In this document: piece by piece, positions 50,730-57,894 of the stretch
How the letters are laid out: each line of letters opens with the position of its first letter
Position numbering within the stretch: position 1 is the first letter of the stretch
From: Armatimonadaceae bacterium
Lineage (GTDB): Bacteria; Armatimonadota; Armatimonadia; Armatimonadales; Armatimonadaceae
Assembly (NCBI GenBank): GCA_030447685.1
Contig: JAUJOK010000006.1
Location: 31,948-95,947 of the forward strand
Direction of reading: 5' to 3'
Length of the DNA: 64,000 nt
Notes under the pieces: generated by a model
Seen by the model: the letters and a program-made list of their open reading frames with translations, nothing else
Databases searched by the model: none
What the model was told of the DNA's origin: nothing
Program-made: the position numbers and the translations under genes

Positions 50730-52418
50730 CTACGGCGTCGGCGGCGCTTGAATCGCTCCCGTGGTTCCGGTCGAAGCATCATCGATGATCGTCGGCGTCA
50801 GGAACACCAGCGTCTCGGTTCCGGACACCGTCCGCTCACGAGAACGGAACAAGCTGCCAATAATCGGCAGGTCGGACAGTATTGGCACCCGGTTGGTCGC
50901 CCGGGCATCGGACCGGGTGATGAACCCGCCCAGCACCATCGTTTCGTTGTTGCGGATACGGCGTGTCGCTCCCACCGTGCGGTTCCGAATCTGCGCACCG
51001 ATGGTTCCGGCTGGGCCGGGGACAAGGGTGAAGCTCGATAACTGCGGCTGCACGAACAGCGAGATCGAGTTGTCACCATTGATTCTCGGCTGCACCACCA
51101 ACCCGTTAACCGACGGAATGTCTCTTTGTGTTGTTTGGGTAATAACGTTGCCGTTGCCGGTAACAATCTGGGATTGTTGGAAAGTCGGCACGATATCGGA
51201 TATGGTAACAAAGCCGATACCATTGTTTACGGTAGTGACAATGGGCGACTGGACCACGTTGATATTGGTACGTGTCAAAGCGGCGCGCAGGGCCGCAACG
51301 GCATTACCAGACGCATATGCAAGGGAAATGGAACCGCCGCTACCCACGGACGTTGTGGCGATATCCAGGTTTCCGGCAGGACGAATCCGCCAGTCAATAC
51401 CGAAGCTATCAAGCTCCTGAATACCAACGTCAATGAACTCAACCTTGATGAGAACCTGACGCGGCGGCACATCCAGAAGCCGGACGAGGTCCTGGAACGC
51501 CGCAATCCCTTCCGGGTCGCCCGTTACCAGAACGGAGTTGTCGGCATCATAAGCGATGACATTGGTAACACCTTCGGGGAGCAGCGCATTGCCCGCGCCG
51601 CCGCCCGCCTGGCCGCCGCCCAGACCGCCGCCACCGCCAGCCAGACCGCCGCCGCCGCCGCCCTGGCCGCCGAAGCCGCCGCCACCGGCCAGTCCCCCGC
51701 CAAAGCCGCCACCACCGCCACCACCGGGATACCCCTGCCGGCCTGCGGAATAGCCGTTGTTTGCGGCGGAAAGATCGCCGCCGCCGCCGCCGCCATTCAG
51801 GATAATCGGCAACGGCTGCGCGGAGGGCTTGGGATTCATGACCGCATCCGCATCCAGTTCATCCGCATGCAGGTACGTGGAATCGTATAGAGTGTTTTTG
51901 AGCACACTGGGCTGCATGAAGTTCAGCCGTATCTTGACGGTCTGCTTCGGACCCGAAACACGCGCCGGAGCGGGAGCAATTGCGGGGACGACCACAGCCT
52001 GGCTGACATCCGCACTGTTCAATCGAGGAGATGCGGCGGCAGCGGCGCTGCTGTCATTGGCAGTCAGCGGGCGCAGGTAGTAGATACCGTCTTCCTGCGA
52101 AACAACCGCCCGCGCCGTATTAGCGACCACGCGCAGCACTTTGCTCAAAGGCTGATCGGCCAGCGTCGTGGTGACCAGACCATAAGACTTTCCCGCCTCC
52201 GGGGGAACAATGCTGATGTTGGTGATCCCGGTCCTCATGGTCAGGATCTTGATAACATCTTCCAGGCGCGCATCACGCACGTCTAAGCTGACAAGCTGTT
52301 CATTGGACGCAGGAGCCGCGTACTGCTGTGCCCGAACCGGACCGGCAAAAAAAGCAGCCCCCAGTGTCCATAGCGCGATAGCGGCACTGTGGCTGCTCCA
52401 CCGCGAAGAGAGTCCCAT
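50730..52418 (-). CDS. pilQ: Type IV pilus secretin, PilQ-like
   Basis: 562 residues, AGGAGG before the ATG. Signal peptide (ALWTLGAAFFAGPVRA). Residues about 40-115 form an STN/N0-type domain (VSLDVRDARLEDVIKILTMR). A Gly-rich stretch at about 205-275 (GYPGGGGGGGFGGGLAGGGG type) follows, an N1-like domain (VLIKVEFIDVGIQELDSFGI), and the secretin domain to about 545 with VPTFQQSQIV..., IRNNETMVLGGFI, and the hallmark VPILSDLPIIGSLFRSRE. It forms the outer-membrane channel for the pilus. It lacks AMIN domains, and the Gly-rich insertion between N0 and N1 is peculiar to this operon. Confidence 0.92.
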   Translation of the reverse strand: MGLSSRWSSHSAAIALWTLGAAFFAGPVRAQQYAAPASNEQLVSLDVRDARLEDVIKILTMRTGITNISIVPPEAGKSYGLVTTTLADQPLSKVLRVVANTARAVVSQEDGIYYLRPLTANDSSAAAAASPRLNSADVSQAVVVPAIAPAPARVSGPKQTVKIRLNFMQPSVLKNTLYDSTYLHADELDADAVMNPKPSAQPLPIILNGGGGGGDLSAANNGYSAGRQGYPGGGGGGGFGGGLAGGGGFGGQGGGGGGLAGGGGGLGGGQAGGGAGNALLPEGVTNVIAYDADNSVLVTGDPEGIAAFQDLVRLLDVPPRQVLIKVEFIDVGIQELDSFGIDWRIRPAGNLDIATTSVGSGGSISLAYASGNAVAALRAALTRTNINVVQSPIVTTVNNGIGFVTISDIVPTFQQSQIVTGNGNVITQTTQRDIPSVNGLVVQPRINGDNSISLFVQPQLSSFTLVPGPAGTIGAQIRNRTVGATRRIRNNETMVLGGFITRSDARATNRVPILSDLPIIGSLFRSRERTVSGTETLVFLTPTIIDDASTGTTGAIQAPPTP

Positions 52419-52442
52419 ACATGTCCTCCTGTCTACTCCACC

Positions 52443-52471
52443 ACACCGACCGTGCTATGCACGGTCGGTGT
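52443..52471 (-). other. Perfect hairpin between the STN-domain gene and pilQ
   Basis: ACACCGACCGTG and CACGGTCGGTGT with a five-base loop, not followed by a T-tract. It may be an mRNA stabiliser or attenuator controlling pilQ level. Confidence 0.5.
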
Positions 52472-52542
52472 CTGGTTCTTTAGTGTTTTTCAATAAACCG
52501 CCGAGTCATTGCCCGGCGTGGGCGCATAGTCATGTGCTGTGG

Positions 52543-53295
52543 TTAGCGGCCAAAGCCACCACCGCCGAAGCCGCCGCTGCCACCGCCAAAGCCGCCGCCG
52601 CCCTGGCCGCCGGTGCCGCCGCCGCCGCCCTGGCCGCCGAAGCAGCCGCCGCCGCCGCCCTGGCCGCCAAAGCCGCCGCCGCCCATGCTGCCGCCGCCAC
52701 CGAAGCCGCCGCCCATGCCGCCGCCGCCAAAGCCGCCGCCACCACCGCCACCACCCTGCTGCATGCCGGGATAGACGCTTAATATGACCGAACCGCCAAG
52801 CTGCTGAACGATCTCAGGGCCGACATACGTGAGATAGATTTTCGACGGCACGGAAGTGGCGCGCTGAGCGCCGGCATCCAGTCCCGCCGTTGGATCGACC
52901 GGGGTCTGTATTGCCCCCTGATCCTGCTGATTCTGGCGAAGCCGAACGATAAATACCCCGTTTTCCCGTGTATAGGTAAGCGGCGGGTTTGCCGAACGAA
53001 GCAGAAGCCGGAACGCGTTTTCAAAAGGCTGATCCTGGATTCGAAGAGTGACAAACCCCTGAATCCCCGGATCAAGCGTATACTGCGCCCGCGCAATGGT
53101 AAACAACTGCTCAAGCGCCGAACGAACCGGAGCATCACGCAGATCAAGCGAAATCGGCGGAAGAGGCGCATCACCGGTGCCGCCGCCGCCGCCGCCGCCG
53201 CCGCCCTGCGCCTGAGCACGGGCTGTTCCCGGCGTCAGCAAGGCTGCCGCGAGGCCCAGACCGAGCACCACGCCCATTCCTATAATTTTTTTCAT
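52543..53295 (-). CDS. Exported STN/secretin N0-domain protein with Gly-rich tail
   Basis: 250 residues from MKKIIGMGVVLGLGLAAALL (ATG 53293-53295, AAGGAGA upstream). Signal peptide, then a Gly run. One STN-like domain follows (ISLDLRDAPVRSALEQLFTI, VTLRIQDQPFENAFRLLLRS, YTRENGVFIVRL). Residues about 175-250 are a Gly/Phe/Met low-complexity tail (GGGGFGGGGMGGGFGGGGSM type). It has no secretin barrel, so it looks like a free-standing N0 module, perhaps a periplasmic partner of PilQ. It precedes pilQ in the operon. Confidence 0.8.
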   Translation of the reverse strand: MKKIIGMGVVLGLGLAAALLTPGTARAQAQGGGGGGGGGTGDAPLPPISLDLRDAPVRSALEQLFTIARAQYTLDPGIQGFVTLRIQDQPFENAFRLLLRSANPPLTYTRENGVFIVRLRQNQQDQGAIQTPVDPTAGLDAGAQRATSVPSKIYLTYVGPEIVQQLGGSVILSVYPGMQQGGGGGGGGFGGGGMGGGFGGGGSMGGGGFGGQGGGGGCFGGQGGGGGTGGQGGGGFGGGSGGFGGGGFGR

Positions 53296-53358
53296 CGTTT
53301 CTGTCTCCTTCCCGTTTTGGGAGGTTAGGATCGTTTGTTTTTGGCGTAGAAGAGGCAA

Positions 53359-54516
53359 TTACAGGCCGGGCGCGATGCCGCCGCCAGGGAAACCGCCGCC
53401 GCCGGGATAGCCGCCGCCGCCACCAGGAAAGCCACCGCCACCGGGGTAGCCGCCACCGCCACCGCCGGGATAGCCAGCCCCGCCATCACCCAGATCACCG
53501 CCGCCGGGGAAACCGCCGCCGGGAACGCGCGCCGCTCCGGGCGGAAGGCCAGTCAGCGGCACTTCGGTGCGGCGGCCATCTTCCGCACGCAGCGTCAGCC
53601 GGGTGGGAGCGATGGACTCAACCGTGAAATCGGCCAGACCTGCCACACCGCTCGATACCAGAGAACCGGGCTGAACCACCTGGGCCGGTCTTTCTCCAGG
53701 CACTCCGGTTTCCAGTATCGCGGACACAGCACCATTATACAGTATTCCCGCGACACGCCGCTGTACGGGCGGCAAGGGGCCTAAAGTCACCTCAGGTGCC
53801 TCTCGGGGCGTCACTCTGGGGCGGGGCACCGAAGCCAGGCGCAGCGGCACCGCAAAAGCGTACGCGGGCGGCCCCTGCGGCACTACTCGTCGGAAGAAGG
53901 AGACAAACGGGTCGGTGCGCGCAGCAACCGCTCTCATACCGGGCCGAACACCCGCCGGCTTATTGGCAGCCGTTGTGGGAGCAGCCGCCGCGGCGCCTCC
54001 GCCGAAGCCGCCGCTTTCTGGGAAACCGCCGTCGCCACCGGGATAACCACCTAAACCGCCGTCGCCACCGGGATAACCGCCCCCACCGTCAAAGCCCGTT
54101 GAGGCCGCCGCAGCAGCTCCCGCGCCTCGTTGCAAACCTGGCGGCGCGCCGGTAAAGGAGTTCGGCAGGGCTTTTCCGCCCGCAGCGGGCGTACCGGAAG
54201 CGGCAGTACCAGTTCCCGCACCGGCGGTGCCGCCTGTGCCAAAGCCGGGATAGCCTCCTGTCGCGCCCGGATCGGTGCCGGGATACCCACCCGCTACACC
54301 GGGATAACTGCCGTCCATTGCGCCCGGATACCCGCCCATCGCAGGATCCTCTAAGCCCGTCGTCGGCGCATCGGCGACGGTGCCTCCGCCCCCGCCGCCA
54401 CCCAGCGTCAGAAACAGAACCGCCGCGATACTAAGCAACAGCACAATCGCGATACCGATCTGGACACGCCGATCTTTTAATATTTCCGTACTTGCGGTTG
54501 AGCCTGTTCTTGCCAT
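53359..54516 (-). CDS. PilP-like inner-membrane pilus protein with Gly/Tyr/Pro-rich regions
   Basis: 385 residues. One N-terminal membrane helix (IGIAIVLLLSIAAVLFLTLG), then a Gly/Tyr/Pro-rich region (about 45-185, MGGYPGAMDGSYPGVAGGYP type). A compact periplasmic domain follows at about 200-330 (DPFVSFFRRVVPQGP, VAGILYNGAVSAILETG, AQVVQPGSLV, FTVESIAPTRLTLRAEDGR), with the HR-domain pattern of PilP/GspC. A second Gly-rich tail (GYPGGGGGGYPGGGGFPGGG) ends it. PilP links the PilNO dimer to the secretin. The assignment rests on the domain pattern and operon position. Confidence 0.75.
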   Translation of the reverse strand: MARTGSTASTEILKDRRVQIGIAIVLLLSIAAVLFLTLGGGGGGGTVADAPTTGLEDPAMGGYPGAMDGSYPGVAGGYPGTDPGATGGYPGFGTGGTAGAGTGTAASGTPAAGGKALPNSFTGAPPGLQRGAGAAAAASTGFDGGGGYPGGDGGLGGYPGGDGGFPESGGFGGGAAAAAPTTAANKPAGVRPGMRAVAARTDPFVSFFRRVVPQGPPAYAFAVPLRLASVPRPRVTPREAPEVTLGPLPPVQRRVAGILYNGAVSAILETGVPGERPAQVVQPGSLVSSGVAGLADFTVESIAPTRLTLRAEDGRRTEVPLTGLPPGAARVPGGGFPGGGDLGDGGAGYPGGGGGGYPGGGGFPGGGGGYPGGGGFPGGGIAPGL

Positions 54517-54587
54517 TACATAACCTGCCTTCGTATTCGCACTGTGCGTCGTATCATTTCACCGTTCAGGAAACCACTGCCGACAGC

Positions 54588-55337
54588 TTAAAGCGCCGGA
54601 GCGCCGCCGCCGCCGCCACCGGGATAGCCAGCCCCGCCATCGCCACCGGGATAGCCACCACCGCCGCCGAAACCGCCGCCGCCGCCGTCCTGCCCACCCG
54701 CCGACGGCACGGTGCCCTGCGCGGTGCCCCGGGTGAAAATGTAGCATGTTAATGAATACTGGGCGGTCAGAAAGGGAGAGTTCCCTGCAAGGGTCAAATT
54801 ATCGACTAAAACCAGTCGTTTGAAGCGGTTCCAGCGTTCCGCATGGTTCAAAACATTACGGAACGACCCAACCACACTGACATTTCCCAGAGGCAAGGTA
54901 ATCAAGCTCTCATTGGCGGCATTCGGGTCTGAAGGCGGCGCAGGAACTGAAATTGCCTGCTGAGCGATTCGGACGGACCGGTCGGCGCGAAGGAAGCGCA
55001 GCGTCAGCGGCCCGAGCGTATTCGTCTGCTCTTCCCAGCGCTGCTGCACGGCGTTCAAAAGGTTTGTCAGTTCAATTCTGGGCATATACCGGGCTTCATA
55101 GCGCGCATATTCCCGCCGCGCCGCCGCGACTTCCCTTTGAGCCGCCCTTCTCTGTTCCTCAACCTGGGGACGGCGCAGTGCGTTCACCTCGTTGGATTCA
55201 TACAGCGCGTTGGCAGCCGTCATCCTGTCCTGAAGAGGCCGGATAAGCCCGAAAAAGATACCTACCGCCGCCAGCACGGTAAGCACCGAGCCTATTATAG
55301 CGATCTGCGGAATCGTCAGCCTGGTTCTTGCTCTCAT
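54588..55337 (-). CDS. pilO: Type IV pilus inner-membrane protein, PilO-like
   Basis: 249 residues, GAGGAG before the ATG. N-terminal helix (IAIIGSVLTVLAAVGIFFGL), a coiled coil (about 38-100, VEEQRRAAQREVAAARREYA), then a ferredoxin-like domain (ISVPAPP; LITLPLGNVSVVGSFRNVLN HAERW; LVLVDNLTLAGN; FLTAQYSLTCYIFTRG). A Gly-rich tail of about 35 residues (GGGGGFGGGGGYPGGDGGAG) is absent from the family norm. It pairs with PilN in the alignment complex. Confidence 0.85.
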   Translation of the reverse strand: MRARTRLTIPQIAIIGSVLTVLAAVGIFFGLIRPLQDRMTAANALYESNEVNALRRPQVEEQRRAAQREVAAARREYARYEARYMPRIELTNLLNAVQQRWEEQTNTLGPLTLRFLRADRSVRIAQQAISVPAPPSDPNAANESLITLPLGNVSVVGSFRNVLNHAERWNRFKRLVLVDNLTLAGNSPFLTAQYSLTCYIFTRGTAQGTVPSAGGQDGGGGGFGGGGGYPGGDGGAGYPGGGGGGAPAL

Positions 55338-55381
55338 AACACGTTCTCCTCTGTGCCCTTTGGGCGCAGATAGCCACCCTG

Positions 55382-56287
55382 TTACCCGCCGGGATAGCCA
55401 CCCTCAGCGCCGGGATAGCCGCCGCCACCCAATTCAGCGCCAGGGTAGCCGCCAAGGCCACCCCCTCCGAAACCGCCGCCTGCCTGTCCGCCCGCCGCTC
55501 CGCCTGCCTGGGGCGGCGTCGGCGGCGTCACCGGCTGAATCAGGCGTCCCGTAATCGTAAAGGGAAACCCGCGTCGACCGGGAATCTGCTGCCCGGCACC
55601 ACCGCCGCCGCCGCCAGGATAGCCGCCACCGCCGCCAGGATAGCCGCCAGCGCCGCCAGCGCCAGGAAAATCACCACCGCCGGGGAAACTGCCAGCGCCG
55701 CCACCACCGGGATAACCACGCCCGCCGCCGCCGGGATAGCCGCCGCCGCCCAATTCAGCGCCCCCGCCACCGGCGGCGGTACCGCCACCCTGATTCTGCG
55801 GCGGCGCCCAGCCGGGAATACCGGCGACGCTGACCGCTTCCAGGTCCGGGTTGCCGAACATCGTGATCAGGAACCGGCCCACATCCGACGTTCTTTTGGC
55901 AAAAGCGTTGATCGAAAGCGTCTGCTGCTGCACGGCCATCGAGCTGTATTCAATATCCCGGTAGGTATATTCCGCCGCGCGGCGGAAAATCTTGGGGCGC
56001 AGGGTGTTATAAAAAAGCACAGCGTCGATGAAGTCGCGCTTGTTGCGGATCGGCGCGATGCTGTCCCGAATCGTCTGCGCCTCGGTTTCGAGTGTCGCGA
56101 CCTCCCCAGCCAGTCGTACCTGCTCGTTCGCCGCCGCTTCGCGTGCTTGCACCGTCGGCTTGAGGGTTAAAAACCATCCCAGCATCGCAGCCGTGACGAT
56201 GGCGAAACCAACCGAGAAGCCGATGATAGCCAGCCGCGTTTTGCGTCGTTCCGCGATATAAGCGGGCAGCAAATTAATTCGCAGCAT
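55382..56287 (-). CDS. pilN: Type IV pilus inner-membrane protein, PilN-like, with long Gly-rich region
   Basis: 301 residues. The N-terminus MLRINLLPAYIAERR carries the INLLP motif that binds PilM. One membrane helix (about 20-43), then a coiled coil and a short ferredoxin-like part (IRNKRDFIDAVLFYNTLRPK, VGRFLITMFGNPDLEAVSVA). Residues about 160-301 consist mainly of GGGGYPGGGG-type repeats, interrupted by a strand-like RRGFPFTITGRLIQPV, so the tail is nearly half the protein. The start follows GGGAG. Confidence 0.87.
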   Translation of the reverse strand: MLRINLLPAYIAERRKTRLAIIGFSVGFAIVTAAMLGWFLTLKPTVQAREAAANEQVRLAGEVATLETEAQTIRDSIAPIRNKRDFIDAVLFYNTLRPKIFRRAAEYTYRDIEYSSMAVQQQTLSINAFAKRTSDVGRFLITMFGNPDLEAVSVAGIPGWAPPQNQGGGTAAGGGGAELGGGGYPGGGGRGYPGGGGAGSFPGGGDFPGAGGAGGYPGGGGGYPGGGGGGAGQQIPGRRGFPFTITGRLIQPVTPPTPPQAGGAAGGQAGGGFGGGGLGGYPGAELGGGGYPGAEGGYPGG

Positions 56288-56365: not shown

Positions 56366-57862
56366 TCACTTTTTGTCCGGCCCCATCAAAGCGTCGCGTG
56401 TCGCCAGTCCGACCGCCACGGCGAACGCCGGGGCCACTTCCTGAAGCCGCTCGCTCGACATCTGGCGCGACGAAACCTTGATGGTAGCGAAAGGGTCAGC
56501 GACTACCGTAGGGATACCCAGTTGCGTTTCCAAAAACTGATCCAGATTCGGAATACGGGCAGAGCCGCCGCACAGCAGGATCTGATCTACCGTATCGCTG
56601 GGATAGCGCGAGCGGAAATAGTCCACCGACCGGCGCACTTCCGCCTCGAACTCTCCCAGTACCGGCAAAAGAGCGTCGAAGAGTTCTCGCCGCCGCCGCG
56701 TACGGGCGTCTTCCGGTATGGCCGCCGGCGGACCGGCAGCGGCGGCAGGCGCTGACCCGAACGGAGACGGGTCCGGCGCGGGCGGCGGCGTGGCAAAGGG
56801 ATTATAGCCGGGGTCGTCAGCGCTGCCGCCGCCGCCGCCGCCGATAGAACTCATCGAAGCCGTCGACGCCGGTTCATCATTCAGATCGAACGGGGAAGGA
56901 GACGCCGTCGTCTCTTCCGACAGGTCAAACGGCGATGCCGCCGGAGAAGGCGGGTCAGCGAAGGGCGACGCCGCAGTAGGATCGGCAAACGGCGTGCTCG
57001 GGGGAACTTCGGAGGAAAAATCAAACGGCGTGCGGCCCGCAGGCGCGGTATTCGCGGCATCATCCAGGCCAAAGTCGGGCGTCCCCCCGCCTGCGATAAG
57101 GTCAAGGAAGATAGCCGCGTTTTCGCGCTTTTCTTCTTCGGCGGTTTCCATTCCCAGACCCAGGTGATCGGAAATGGCGCGGGTAAAGTTGTCGCCCGCG
57201 ATAGGGATGGTGCGGGGAAAGCGTAAAATGCCGCTCTTGAAGATACCGACATCGGTGGCCGATGCGCCGATATTGACAACGACGACGTTCTTAGCGGCCA
57301 GGTCGGCCTTCGACAGATTGATCAGCGCCCGCCCGACAGCCAGCGGCTCTACATCCACGGCAACCGGGTTCAGCCCCGCCGCCTGGAGCGTCTCGATATG
57401 CGTCGCCACCATATCGCGCTGCGCGACCGCCAGCAGCACTTCCATATTGACGCTGTTGGGGTCCGCTGCGGCGACAGGATCATCGATGGGCTGATACGCC
57501 ATCTCCACATCGTTGGCGGCAAAGGGAATATGGCGCTCTACTTCCCATTTCATCGTTTCCGCCAGCTCTGCCGGGGTCATGCGGGGAACTTCGATAACGC
57601 GCACGACGACCGACGCCGCGCCCGTGGCGGCGGACACCGACCGCTTCGCGCCGATACCGCTCTTGGCCAGCAGCGCCTTGATGGCCGCGCCCAGCGCCTT
57701 GGGATCAGCAACGATTCCGCCCTGAATCGCACCCGGCGGCGTGTTCTCGATACCGAGCGCGCTGATCTGGAGATTGCTGCCCGCGCCGCGCGCTTCTACC
57801 GCCTTGATCGTTTGAGAACCTATATCGAGACCTACGAATGCCCCGCCGCTGGGTTTTGCCAA
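56366..57862 (-). CDS. pilM: Type IV pilus actin-like ATPase PilM with a large insertion
   Basis: 498 residues from TTG 57862, chosen because AAGGAAGG lies upstream. A GTG at 57883 would begin only about five bases from the predicted transcript start. Actin-like fold: FVGLDIGSQTIKAVEAR, VVVRVIEVPRMTPAELAETM, WEVERHIPF, VVVNIGASATDVGIFKSGIL, ILLCGGSARIPNLDQFLETQ. Between about 254 and 389 a low-complexity insertion carries repeated PFD/PFAD units (TPFDFSSE, TPFADPTA, SPFADPPS, SPFDLSEE, SPFDLNDE) and a Gly run. Standard PilM proteins of about 350 residues lack it. PilM is cytoplasmic and binds PilN. First gene of the pilus operon. Confidence 0.9.
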   Translation of the reverse strand: MAKPSGGAFVGLDIGSQTIKAVEARGAGSNLQISALGIENTPPGAIQGGIVADPKALGAAIKALLAKSGIGAKRSVSAATGAASVVVRVIEVPRMTPAELAETMKWEVERHIPFAANDVEMAYQPIDDPVAAADPNSVNMEVLLAVAQRDMVATHIETLQAAGLNPVAVDVEPLAVGRALINLSKADLAAKNVVVVNIGASATDVGIFKSGILRFPRTIPIAGDNFTRAISDHLGLGMETAEEEKRENAAIFLDLIAGGGTPDFGLDDAANTAPAGRTPFDFSSEVPPSTPFADPTAASPFADPPSPAASPFDLSEETTASPSPFDLNDEPASTASMSSIGGGGGGSADDPGYNPFATPPPAPDPSPFGSAPAAAAGPPAAIPEDARTRRRRELFDALLPVLGEFEAEVRRSVDYFRSRYPSDTVDQILLCGGSARIPNLDQFLETQLGIPTVVADPFATIKVSSRQMSSERLQEVAPAFAVAVGLATRDALMGPDKK

Positions 57863-57894
57863 TTTGCCGGTCCTTCCTTGCACGAATTCGCGCT

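Follow-up and report, generated by a model that had tools for sequence, protein, structure and literature searches.

Glycine-rich segments with a lineage-specific wording shared among pilus-machine proteins of Armatimonadota

The operon and its proteins

This locus raises the question of why five consecutive proteins of a pilus machine all carry long Gly-rich segments, and why the segments of one genome resemble each other. The operon lies on the reverse strand of a 64,000-nucleotide stretch (the window) of an Armatimonadota genome and, as read from its open reading frames and Pfam profiles, has the order PilM-N-O-P-STN-Q. Two of the families expected of a Type IVa PilMNOPQ machine are present: PilM (56366..57883; PilM_2, E 1.5e-57), a cytoplasmic family and here without a Gly-rich tail, and the secretin PilQ (50730..52418), with Secretin (E 1.9e-28) and Secretin_N (E 1.6e-8) domains and an N0 domain recognised through a profile match with the STN protein. 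The PilN-like protein (55382..56287) gave no Pfam match and the PilO-like protein (54588..55337) matched PilO below the cut-off only; both were assigned from the gene order conserved in the phylum, PilN also through its own family profile. The STN protein (52543..53358; Pfam STN E 2.8e-6, just under the cut-off) has 271 residues if started at a TTG codon that may be too early, the protein database calling 250 residues on the same contig (P0001). Judged from its sequence, which matches the PilQ N-terminus with a profile probability of 99.9, it is a truncated paralogue of that region, a PilQ-derived half.

The AlphaFold model of the PilP-like protein (53359..54516) shows a membrane helix (residues 16–38), a Gly-rich linker, a beta domain (residues 250–321; 53554..53769) and a Gly-rich tail, thus providing both the anchor and the HR-type domain expected of this component. 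A Foldseek search with the domain placed the HR domain of GspC first (3oss_C, E 8.2e-3, TMt 0.79), and 2y4y_C appeared 24th (E 0.12, TMt 0.62), with ribosomal chains of poor TM-score ranking between. In the accessible text of PMC3169554 the HR domain is described as binding the N0 domain of the secretin.

The same genome holds a second pil cluster, in which PilM, PilN and PilO are devoid of Gly-rich segments and the secretin and an adjoining protein have short ones, that of the secretin without YPG wording. A gene that by eye resembles a motor ATPase adjoins this cluster (L090), and a third cluster includes a PilN-like reading frame (C84) absent from the called genes.

Gly-rich segments in the window

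All five reading frames and their Gly-rich regions, as claimed by a sequence-only reading of this DNA, are present in the sequence, although several details of that reading had to be corrected. PilN bears one segment at residues 156–245 (55553..55822) and a C-terminal tail at residues 255–301 (55385..55525). The C-terminal tail of PilO (residues 202–249; 54591..54734) measures about 48 residues instead of the 35 or so first given. PilP had been credited with two regions and has three long ones, at residues 61–114 and 131–180, which together with the stretch between them form the linker (53977..54336), and at the C-terminal tail (residues 321–385; 53362..53556). The STN protein ends in a tail (residues 187–271; 52546..52800) and has an additional short region at residues 39–73. 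The PilQ insert (residues 207–286; 51561..51800), formerly placed strictly between N0 and N1, lies inside the N1 region, since the match to Pfam Secretin_N begins no earlier than profile position 25 (residues 270–321) and the stretch preceding the insert aligns with the STN protein.

The best 40-residue windows of these segments contain 60–78% Gly, and charges are scarce (1–6% of each sign), a composition that, taken by itself, is compatible with a phase-separating low-complexity domain. The segments of PilP and of a further protein, A (see below), are predicted to be disordered, as the others probably are, and the hydrophobic N-termini of the segment-bearing proteins suggest that these are exported.

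The Gly-rich regions of the operon proteins are more than chance. In two relatives sampled at spaced positions and blind to Gly (G005, one contig, and G014), all five operon proteins are Gly-rich and a Gly-rich stretch of at least 30 residues is found in 5 of 330 and 7 of 303 genes. The figure for the window's genome (G000) is 13 of 463 with the operon and proteins A and B excluded, in a sample partly picked for Gly, some of its stretches having been chosen for Gly hits. Within the 5.0 Mb genome the exact motif YPGGGGG has 11 DNA sites, which without exception fall in the operon, gene A or gene B, and the reversed pattern has none; the looser pattern [FY]PG finds further places. For a poly-Gly pattern, which reads identically backwards, a reversed control is uninformative.

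Recurrence of the segments across the phylum

The sample comprised 80 of the 99 genomes of the phylum that matched PilM at E 1e-60, together with G008, G012 and G017; the other 19 were left out, some of them for too short a stretch. With genes cut by contig ends excluded, Gly-rich segments were found in 67/79 PilN, 53/77 PilO, 50/74 PilP, 63/64 STN and 46/61 PilQ proteins of these 83 genomes. The single STN protein without a tail is a 150-residue reading frame of G008, close to a contig end. Cytoplasmic PilM, used as internal negative control, has Gly-rich low-complexity sequence in only 6 of 80 cases.

The conservation of position with diverging DNA that the sequence-only reading proposed to look for was indeed observed: the segments occupy the same positions phylum-wide, and between congeners their amino acids are kept and their codons scrambled. 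In most congener comparisons conservation is higher in the folded parts than in the segments, whose identities are moreover inflated by the alignment of low-complexity sequence. Neither absence from close relatives nor near-identical DNA units lacking conservation, the two outcomes named as refutation, was encountered.

Segments of PilNOP and of PilQ were gained and lost together: both were present in 40 genomes, neither in 19 and one in 2, a state agreement of 59/61 with seven changes inferred on the PilM tree and a contrast correlation of 0.88, the thresholds of the presence and absence tests (60, 40 and 30 residues) having been fixed after the tables were viewed. The STN tail persists where the other operon proteins have none. 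Length co-variation under contrasts reached 0.39 for P-Q, 0.36 for N-Q, 0.26 for O-P and 0.22 for N-P (all p <0.04), with N-O (r -0.25) and all STN pairs not significant; being weaker under contrasts, it was dropped as an argument in favour of presence, absence and wording. GC drift was discarded as a cause, as segment length does not track PilM GC3 (rho -0.08 to 0.21), and so was a genome-wide poly-Gly drift, the load not differing between the 21 tail-bearing and the 15 tail-poor genomes (p 0.26).

A wording shared within each genome

The wording of the segments varies by lineage (YPGGGG, MMGGSGS, GGPPMPGG) and is common to PilN, PilO and PilP of one genome, like a dialect. For the N-O, N-P and O-P pairs the same-genome similarity exceeds that within the same family (p 0.0002 each, within-family permutation), also after deletion of all Gly residues (p 0.0002, 0.0055 and 0.0020, respectively). 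The choice between Met and aromatic residues co-varies among the segments (r 0.57–0.69, independent contrasts), and under contrasts the ratio of the folded parts shows no such co-variation; by plain rank, the Met ratio of the folded parts correlates with that of the PilO and PilP segments (0.40 and 0.59). In STN and PilQ this dialect is faint or absent, and their Met-versus-aromatic choice is uncoupled. They were also rejected as a dialect group of their own, on a small 4-mer excess (within-family p 0.0014) and a co-variation of r -0.05, and an aromatic C-terminal ending of STN was rejected as a signal, the last residue being aromatic in 34/63 proteins.

Protein A, predicted to be exported and encoded outside the operon, carries an insert in the same dialect as PilN, PilO and PilP. 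It was sought in 38 genomes selected to cover both kinds of operon, yielding 30 loci, which with 14 of the window's own class make 44; three of these lack a full PilNOP, and among the remaining 41 the insert occurs in 27/29 tail-bearing and 0/12 tail-less genomes, G039 and G012 breaking the rule. "Distant" means another contig in most of these draft genomes; where both share a contig, the distance is 43 kb (G014), about 30 kb (G149) or hundreds of kb or more (G039, G087). In the 31 genomes (14 families) with at least 25 Gly-rich residues on both sides, the dialect score of A was 0.317 against the same genome, 0.162 within the same family and 0.103 against other families, and the match persists beyond the window's class and when each family is represented by a single genome. 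The own operon is the best match in only 10 of the 31 genomes (chance 1 in 31 each), and continuous length co-variation of A with PilNOP gave p 0.055 under contrasts. A resemblance of A to BamE/SmpA, which we had presumed, was abandoned: Pfam gave no match and the best PDB fold match has E 0.27.

The dialect extends beyond the pilus, strongly in protein C, in protein B in some genomes, for which reason B was not retained as a general partner, and in further predicted-exported proteins of G006 and G014. It may therefore be an envelope-wide trait. Some strings are shared outright: in G009 PilO and C have GGGKSMPGAAGM in common, and in G089 RGGGMRGGGMRGGG occurs both in A and in the PilNOP segments.

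Proposed role of the segments and its alternatives

The common physical role proposed by the sequence-only reading is strengthened by the dialect within genomes and by the joint presence and absence; its form (mesh, condensate or wall binding) stays a proposal. The explanation that we favour, at slightly less than even confidence, is that matched, mutually cohesive Gly-rich chains make up a compliant mesh that lies between the secretin and the PilNOP platform. The segments are all expected to branch off at about the level of PilP-HR, PilQ-N0 and the periplasmic domains of PilN and PilO, and cohesion would come through Met, Phe or Tyr "stickers" spread on Gly spacers, the tails probably sticking to each other, or to some partner that all of them share, within the periplasm. 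Such a mesh could keep the secretin attached to the PilNOP cage and still allow stretch during pilus extension. As for the matching of dialects, a tail would occasionally be copied through DNA exchange inside the operon, and the remaining tails would be kept in step by selection that favours compatible partners. A bolder and more tentative reading, to which we give appreciably less than even credence, is a lineage-specific envelope "adhesive language". Tails with a length of dozens of residues, on proteins that are otherwise unrelated and whose genes lie in one operon or far apart, would co-evolve word for word as only those of the same dialect cohere, and dialect sharing would point to functional partners, in this case A, C, PilN, PilO and PilP around the secretin.

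The likeness could instead be a by-product of DNA exchange, with repeats spread by gene conversion and slippage and merely tolerated. Fresh DNA copies do exist, between PilN and PilO in G005 (60/60 bases), G137 and G019, between PilO and PilP in G019 and between PilP and STN in G067, as do tandem units within A of G006, and PilN-PilO pairs taken together show a codon excess (172/338 against 129.9 expected, 24 genomes). Within operons, 5/98 gene pairs reach p<0.003 and 8/98 p<0.01. At distant loci, however, shared residues use identical codons at chance level (281/635 against 283.8 expected) in near-identical stretches of 10–28 residues (47 pairs, two of them with an excess at p<0.01), and near-identical DNA at dispersed sites, the mark of a spreading repeat, was confined to a few pairs within operons. 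Recent repeat spread, an alternative already raised for neighbouring genes, is thus real in a few operon pairs, minor there overall and ruled out by the codon test as the main cause in distant genes. Amino acids conserved past synonymous scrambling, the sparing of most neighbouring PilM proteins, and presence and loss that are joint across genes and loci also speak against a by-product, which we regard as distinctly improbable.

Two further readings were weighed. The segments may be flexible spacers that let the machine span and stretch over a wide periplasm, the dialect reflecting one physical optimum per species and not contact between tails. The precedent is PilW of Thermus, whose gene lies between pilO and pilQ and which has an HR-like domain and a high Gly and Pro content; according to passages of a 2026 paper (PMC13039148), it is a proposed flexible bridge, and removal of 54 residues brings the inner platform about 7 nm nearer to PilQ. 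The PilP linker of the window stands in the same place. Most segments, however, are C-terminal tails (PilN, PilO, PilP, STN) with nothing tethered at their far end, and a pure spacer has no need of the strings shared by PilO and C or by A and PilNOP. We regard spacers as an unlikely explanation. That all tails bind a single envelope ligand differing between lineages (peptidoglycan, a surface polymer or the S-layer) would account for the dialect in distant predicted-exported proteins and for its absence from cytoplasmic PilM; the ligand is putative, the segments hold few charges for such a role, and we know of no binding motif for strings of this kind. This reading we consider improbable.

If mutually cohesive chains were the correct explanation, a core bacterial nanomachine would be held together in part by disordered tails that recognise one another, and specific information would reside in low-complexity sequence, which homology searches usually mask out. 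Dialect sharing would then offer a new route to the partners of envelope machines in a phylum with few cultured members. The system also allows a direct test of mutual recognition between bacterial low-complexity domains of matching sequence.

Comparison with known systems

A literature search found no paper on such Gly-rich pilus segments in Armatimonadota. The gene order is, we take it, that of the proteobacterial Type IVa pilus alignment complex, and the PilMNOPQ machines of Neisseria, Pseudomonas and Myxococcus share with this operon the PilM and secretin families and the HR-like fold of PilP (2y4y_C, see above). Unlike them, the present operon encodes a half-secretin (STN), its PilN, PilO and PilP bear long Gly-rich tails, the N1 region of its secretin has a Gly-rich insert, and its PilN and PilO are too diverged for Pfam.

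Low-complexity domains of the sticker-and-spacer type, such as those of annexin A11, the FG nucleoporins and the silk-type GPGG repeats, likewise carry little charge and have Tyr, Phe or Met scattered over a background of Gly and Pro. They are eukaryotic and, to our knowledge, unrelated in sequence, whereas the segments described here belong to the bacterial envelope and their wording changes concertedly in several genes.

In type II secretion, GspC with GspD (3oss_C) provides the closest PDB match of the PilP domain. GspC differs in its linker, which is rich in Pro, and in the PDZ domain that it has in most cases, and no Gly-rich tails are described for it in the accessible text of PMC3169554. 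A further close counterpart is PilW of Thermus thermophilus (PilMNOWQ), which resembles PilP in its HR-like domain, in its gene place between pilO and pilQ and in its Gly/Pro-rich flexible part (PMC13039148, in the passages cited), so that the absence of such regions from known members, as stated earlier, does not hold strictly. In those passages a single protein of this type is described for Thermus, whereas here five operon proteins and distant ones carry Gly-rich segments with shared lineage-specific wording, and the operon includes an additional, PilQ-derived STN protein.

Architecture and conservation of the operon

The operon lies on the minus strand of the window in the order PilM, PilN, PilO, a PilP-like protein, an STN-domain protein and the secretin PilQ, and the 26 named relatives retrieved with PilM are Armatimonadetes/Armatimonadota, Chthonomonas or Capsulimonas-type records. 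The Gly-rich segments described in the sequence-only reading are indeed present in all five proteins downstream of PilM. Structure prediction gave the PilP-like protein a membrane helix, a Gly-rich linker of low confidence and a beta domain modelled with confidence. The top PDB match of this model was the GspC HR domain from a structure of the GspC-GspD complex (E 8.2e-3, TM-score over target 0.79); Pseudomonas PilP was match number 24 (E 0.12, TM-score 0.62), after ribosomal chains with poor TM-scores. The N0 domain of the secretin is bound by HR domains (PMC3169554). Residues 50-191 of STN align to the PilQ N-terminus (residues 31-181; profile match, probability 99.9, E 6e-32) and the Gly-rich segment starts shortly past the aligned part in both proteins, so STN appears to be a truncated duplicate of secretin N0 and the beginning of N1, and the PilQ segment is an insertion within N1. 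The STN tails (C-terminus, window:52543-52560) often terminate in an aromatic residue accompanied by Arg (FGR, RNF, RGF, PRW); the final residue is aromatic in 34 of 63.

The operon was gathered from 83 genomes of 22 families. Among complete genes, a Gly-rich stretch of at least 20 residues was found in 67/79 PilN, 53/77 PilO, 50/74 PilP, 63/64 STN and 46/61 PilQ; PilM, the cytoplasmic neighbour, is mostly free of them (6/80). Where present, the segments keep constant positions: the C-terminal tails of PilN, PilO, PilP and STN, the PilP linker and the PilQ insert, with an additional inner segment in PilN of many genomes. Amino acid identity between congeners in these parts was 71-98% in the three best-sampled genera and 0.48-1.00 in five further groups, values that the alignment of low-complexity sequence inflates, and identical residues used the same codon at 38-77%, similar to or below most folded parts. 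Amino acids kept despite codon divergence argue, on these alignments, that the Gly-rich protein sequence is under purifying selection, usually laxer than in the folded parts. The earlier interpretation, a common physical role, is supported in part; the dialect described below is new, and cohesion is our proposal.

The segments also come and go together. With at least 60 residues in total required for PilN, PilO and PilP (PilNOP) and at least 40 for PilQ, 40 of the 61 genomes with complete genes carry both, 19 neither, two PilNOP alone and none PilQ alone. The PilNOP state changes seven times on the PilM tree (parsimony, 74 tips) and, under contrasts, varies together with the PilQ state (r 0.88, p 0.0002), the STN tail being kept throughout. 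Segment length is less telling than this joint presence: under contrasts P-Q (0.39), N-Q (0.36), O-P (0.26) and N-P (0.22) all reached p < 0.04, and N-O and the STN pairs did not.

A dialect shared in cis and in trans

Segment wording varies by lineage and is common to the genes of one genome: YPGGGG in the window's genome, FPGGGG in G006, MMGGSGSMMGG in G004, G008 and G010, and GGPPMPGG in G020. Four-residue-word similarity among PilN, PilO and PilP was 0.20-0.26 in the same genome, 0.11-0.17 within families and 0.08 between them (same-genome excess, within-family permutation p 0.0002), and the likeness persists with all Gly deleted (p 0.0002-0.0055). The choice of Met versus Phe/Tyr/Trp co-varies among the three under contrasts (0.57, 0.65 and 0.69; p 0.0014, 0.0096 and 0.0028); in the folded parts, this ratio shows no such link under contrasts (0.09-0.23, none p < 0.05), yet a plain rank correlation ties it to PilO (0.40) and PilP (0.59). 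STN and PilQ resemble each other more weakly, and PilN, PilO and PilP little.

A search of the window's genome found exact YPGGGGG outside the operon in two genes only, A and B, both with hydrophobic N-termini. Protein A (L092:4843-5733; G000:C82:48842-49732), predicted to be exported, has two folded parts flanking a 137-residue Gly-rich insert, which is predicted at low confidence and presumably disordered; no Pfam family or clear PDB fold match was found. It was matched in 38/38 further Armatimonadota genomes searched, and the insert is present in 47/47 database homologues. Records named Armatimonadaceae and Armatimonas are among the homologues of A and, with the relatives retrieved by PilM, place the window's genome in Armatimonadota. 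An insert of at least 30 residues occurs in 27/29 genomes with PilNOP tails versus 0/12 without (Fisher p 1e-8), G039 and G012 being exceptions to this rule. Across family means the insert correlates with the operon (rho 0.73, p 0.0012, 16 families); under contrasts it does so with PilNOP on a binary scale (r 0.77, p 0.0003), less clearly on a continuous one (r 0.42, p 0.055), and with the PilQ segment (0.50, p 0.0044). Dialect similarity of A to PilNOP fell from 0.317 in its own genome to 0.162 within the family and 0.103 beyond it (31 genomes from 14 families, p 0.0001). The excess persists among the 20 genomes that lie outside the class and when each family supplies a single genome (14; p 0.0001 each); the own operon was the best match in 10/31. 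A of G006 (L215, G006:C67:44361-44695) contains near-identical TTTCCGGGTGGCGGCGGTGG units coded unlike the operon's FPGGGG, the product of a recent tandem expansion inside the gene.

Protein C (L255:2874-4769, L259:2356-3828, L254:407-1495; no Pfam family found) carries one or two segments in the genome's dialect and adjoins a TatC-like gene, named by eye, in G006 and G014 (L255, L259); the copy in the window's genome is broken by a run of N. Its similarity to the operon within the class was 0.408 in the same genome, 0.292 in the genus and 0.170 in other genera (p 0.0001). Protein B (L091:5463-6530), with a PKD domain, follows the dialect only in part, carrying a YPG-type segment in the window's genome (G000), G014, G016 and G013 and other wording or none elsewhere. 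Further predicted-exported genes with similar wording occur in G006 and G014. FPGGGG segments are also present in a PQQ_2/BamB-type beta-propeller protein (G006, L256:1800-3836) and a weakly DUF4412-like protein (G014, L258:2149-3219). Other Gly-rich genes of these genomes are mostly off-dialect (means 0.02-0.08, that of the window's genome still including A and B; highest 0.21 and 0.18). A PASTA-type protein kinase, named by eye (window:46488-48662), has a Gly-rich stretch outside the YPG dialect ahead of its kinase domain. Two further pil- or secretion-type clusters of the window's genome (L090:436-7658, L093:4722-10055) were recognized by PilN family matches, other genes being named by eye; that at L090 has no Gly-rich segment in PilM, PilN or PilO. 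The secretin of that L090 cluster and an adjoining protein have short Gly-rich stretches, and YPG wording is absent from that of the secretin. What is new overall is a dialect that co-varies and is shared both within the operon and with genes at other loci.

DNA copying, and proposed cohesion or flexible bridging

Spread of repeat DNA between neighbouring genes, also considered in the sequence-only reading, accounts for some likeness inside operons: PilN and PilO of G005 share 60/60 bases, a fresh copy, and four further pairs (G137, G019, G067) exceed codon expectation (p<0.003; 98 pairs tested, 8 at p<0.01). Codons are scrambled, though, in many stretches of equal similarity (25/26 residues and 5/18 codons in G066; 24/25 residues and 6/18 codons in G008). 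Distant genes share codons no more often than chance predicts (281/635 observed, 283.8 expected; 2/47 pairs below p 0.01), even at 25/25 residues (G017 C and PilN) and for the rather specific GGGKSMPGAAGM common to C and PilO of G009. Composition alone partly predicts such best-matching low-complexity stretches; the cross-genome dialect comparisons control for it.

Gly makes up 37-56% of the segments, Met, Phe or Tyr are scattered through them, and each charge accounts for 1-6%; a Gly background with such residues and little charge is the make-up of a sticker-and-spacer chain. Judging by the protein families and the modelled PilP, each segment would emerge from its protein near the level of the PilP-HR/PilQ-N0 contact, where the periplasmic domains of PilN and PilO end. 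Mutual cohesion of the segments would most likely explain the dialect, because spacers need no matching, nor need a protein encoded at another locus follow suit. A common ligand bound by all segments accounts for the same data at the cost of one more unknown. For part of the function, a flexible bridge is a strong rival to cohesion, and its nearest precedent is Thermus PilW, likewise an HR protein with a Gly-rich flexible part. PilW is described as rich in Gly and Pro and proposed to act as such a bridge, and removal of 54 of its residues is reported to bring the platform about 7 nm nearer PilQ (PMC13039148).
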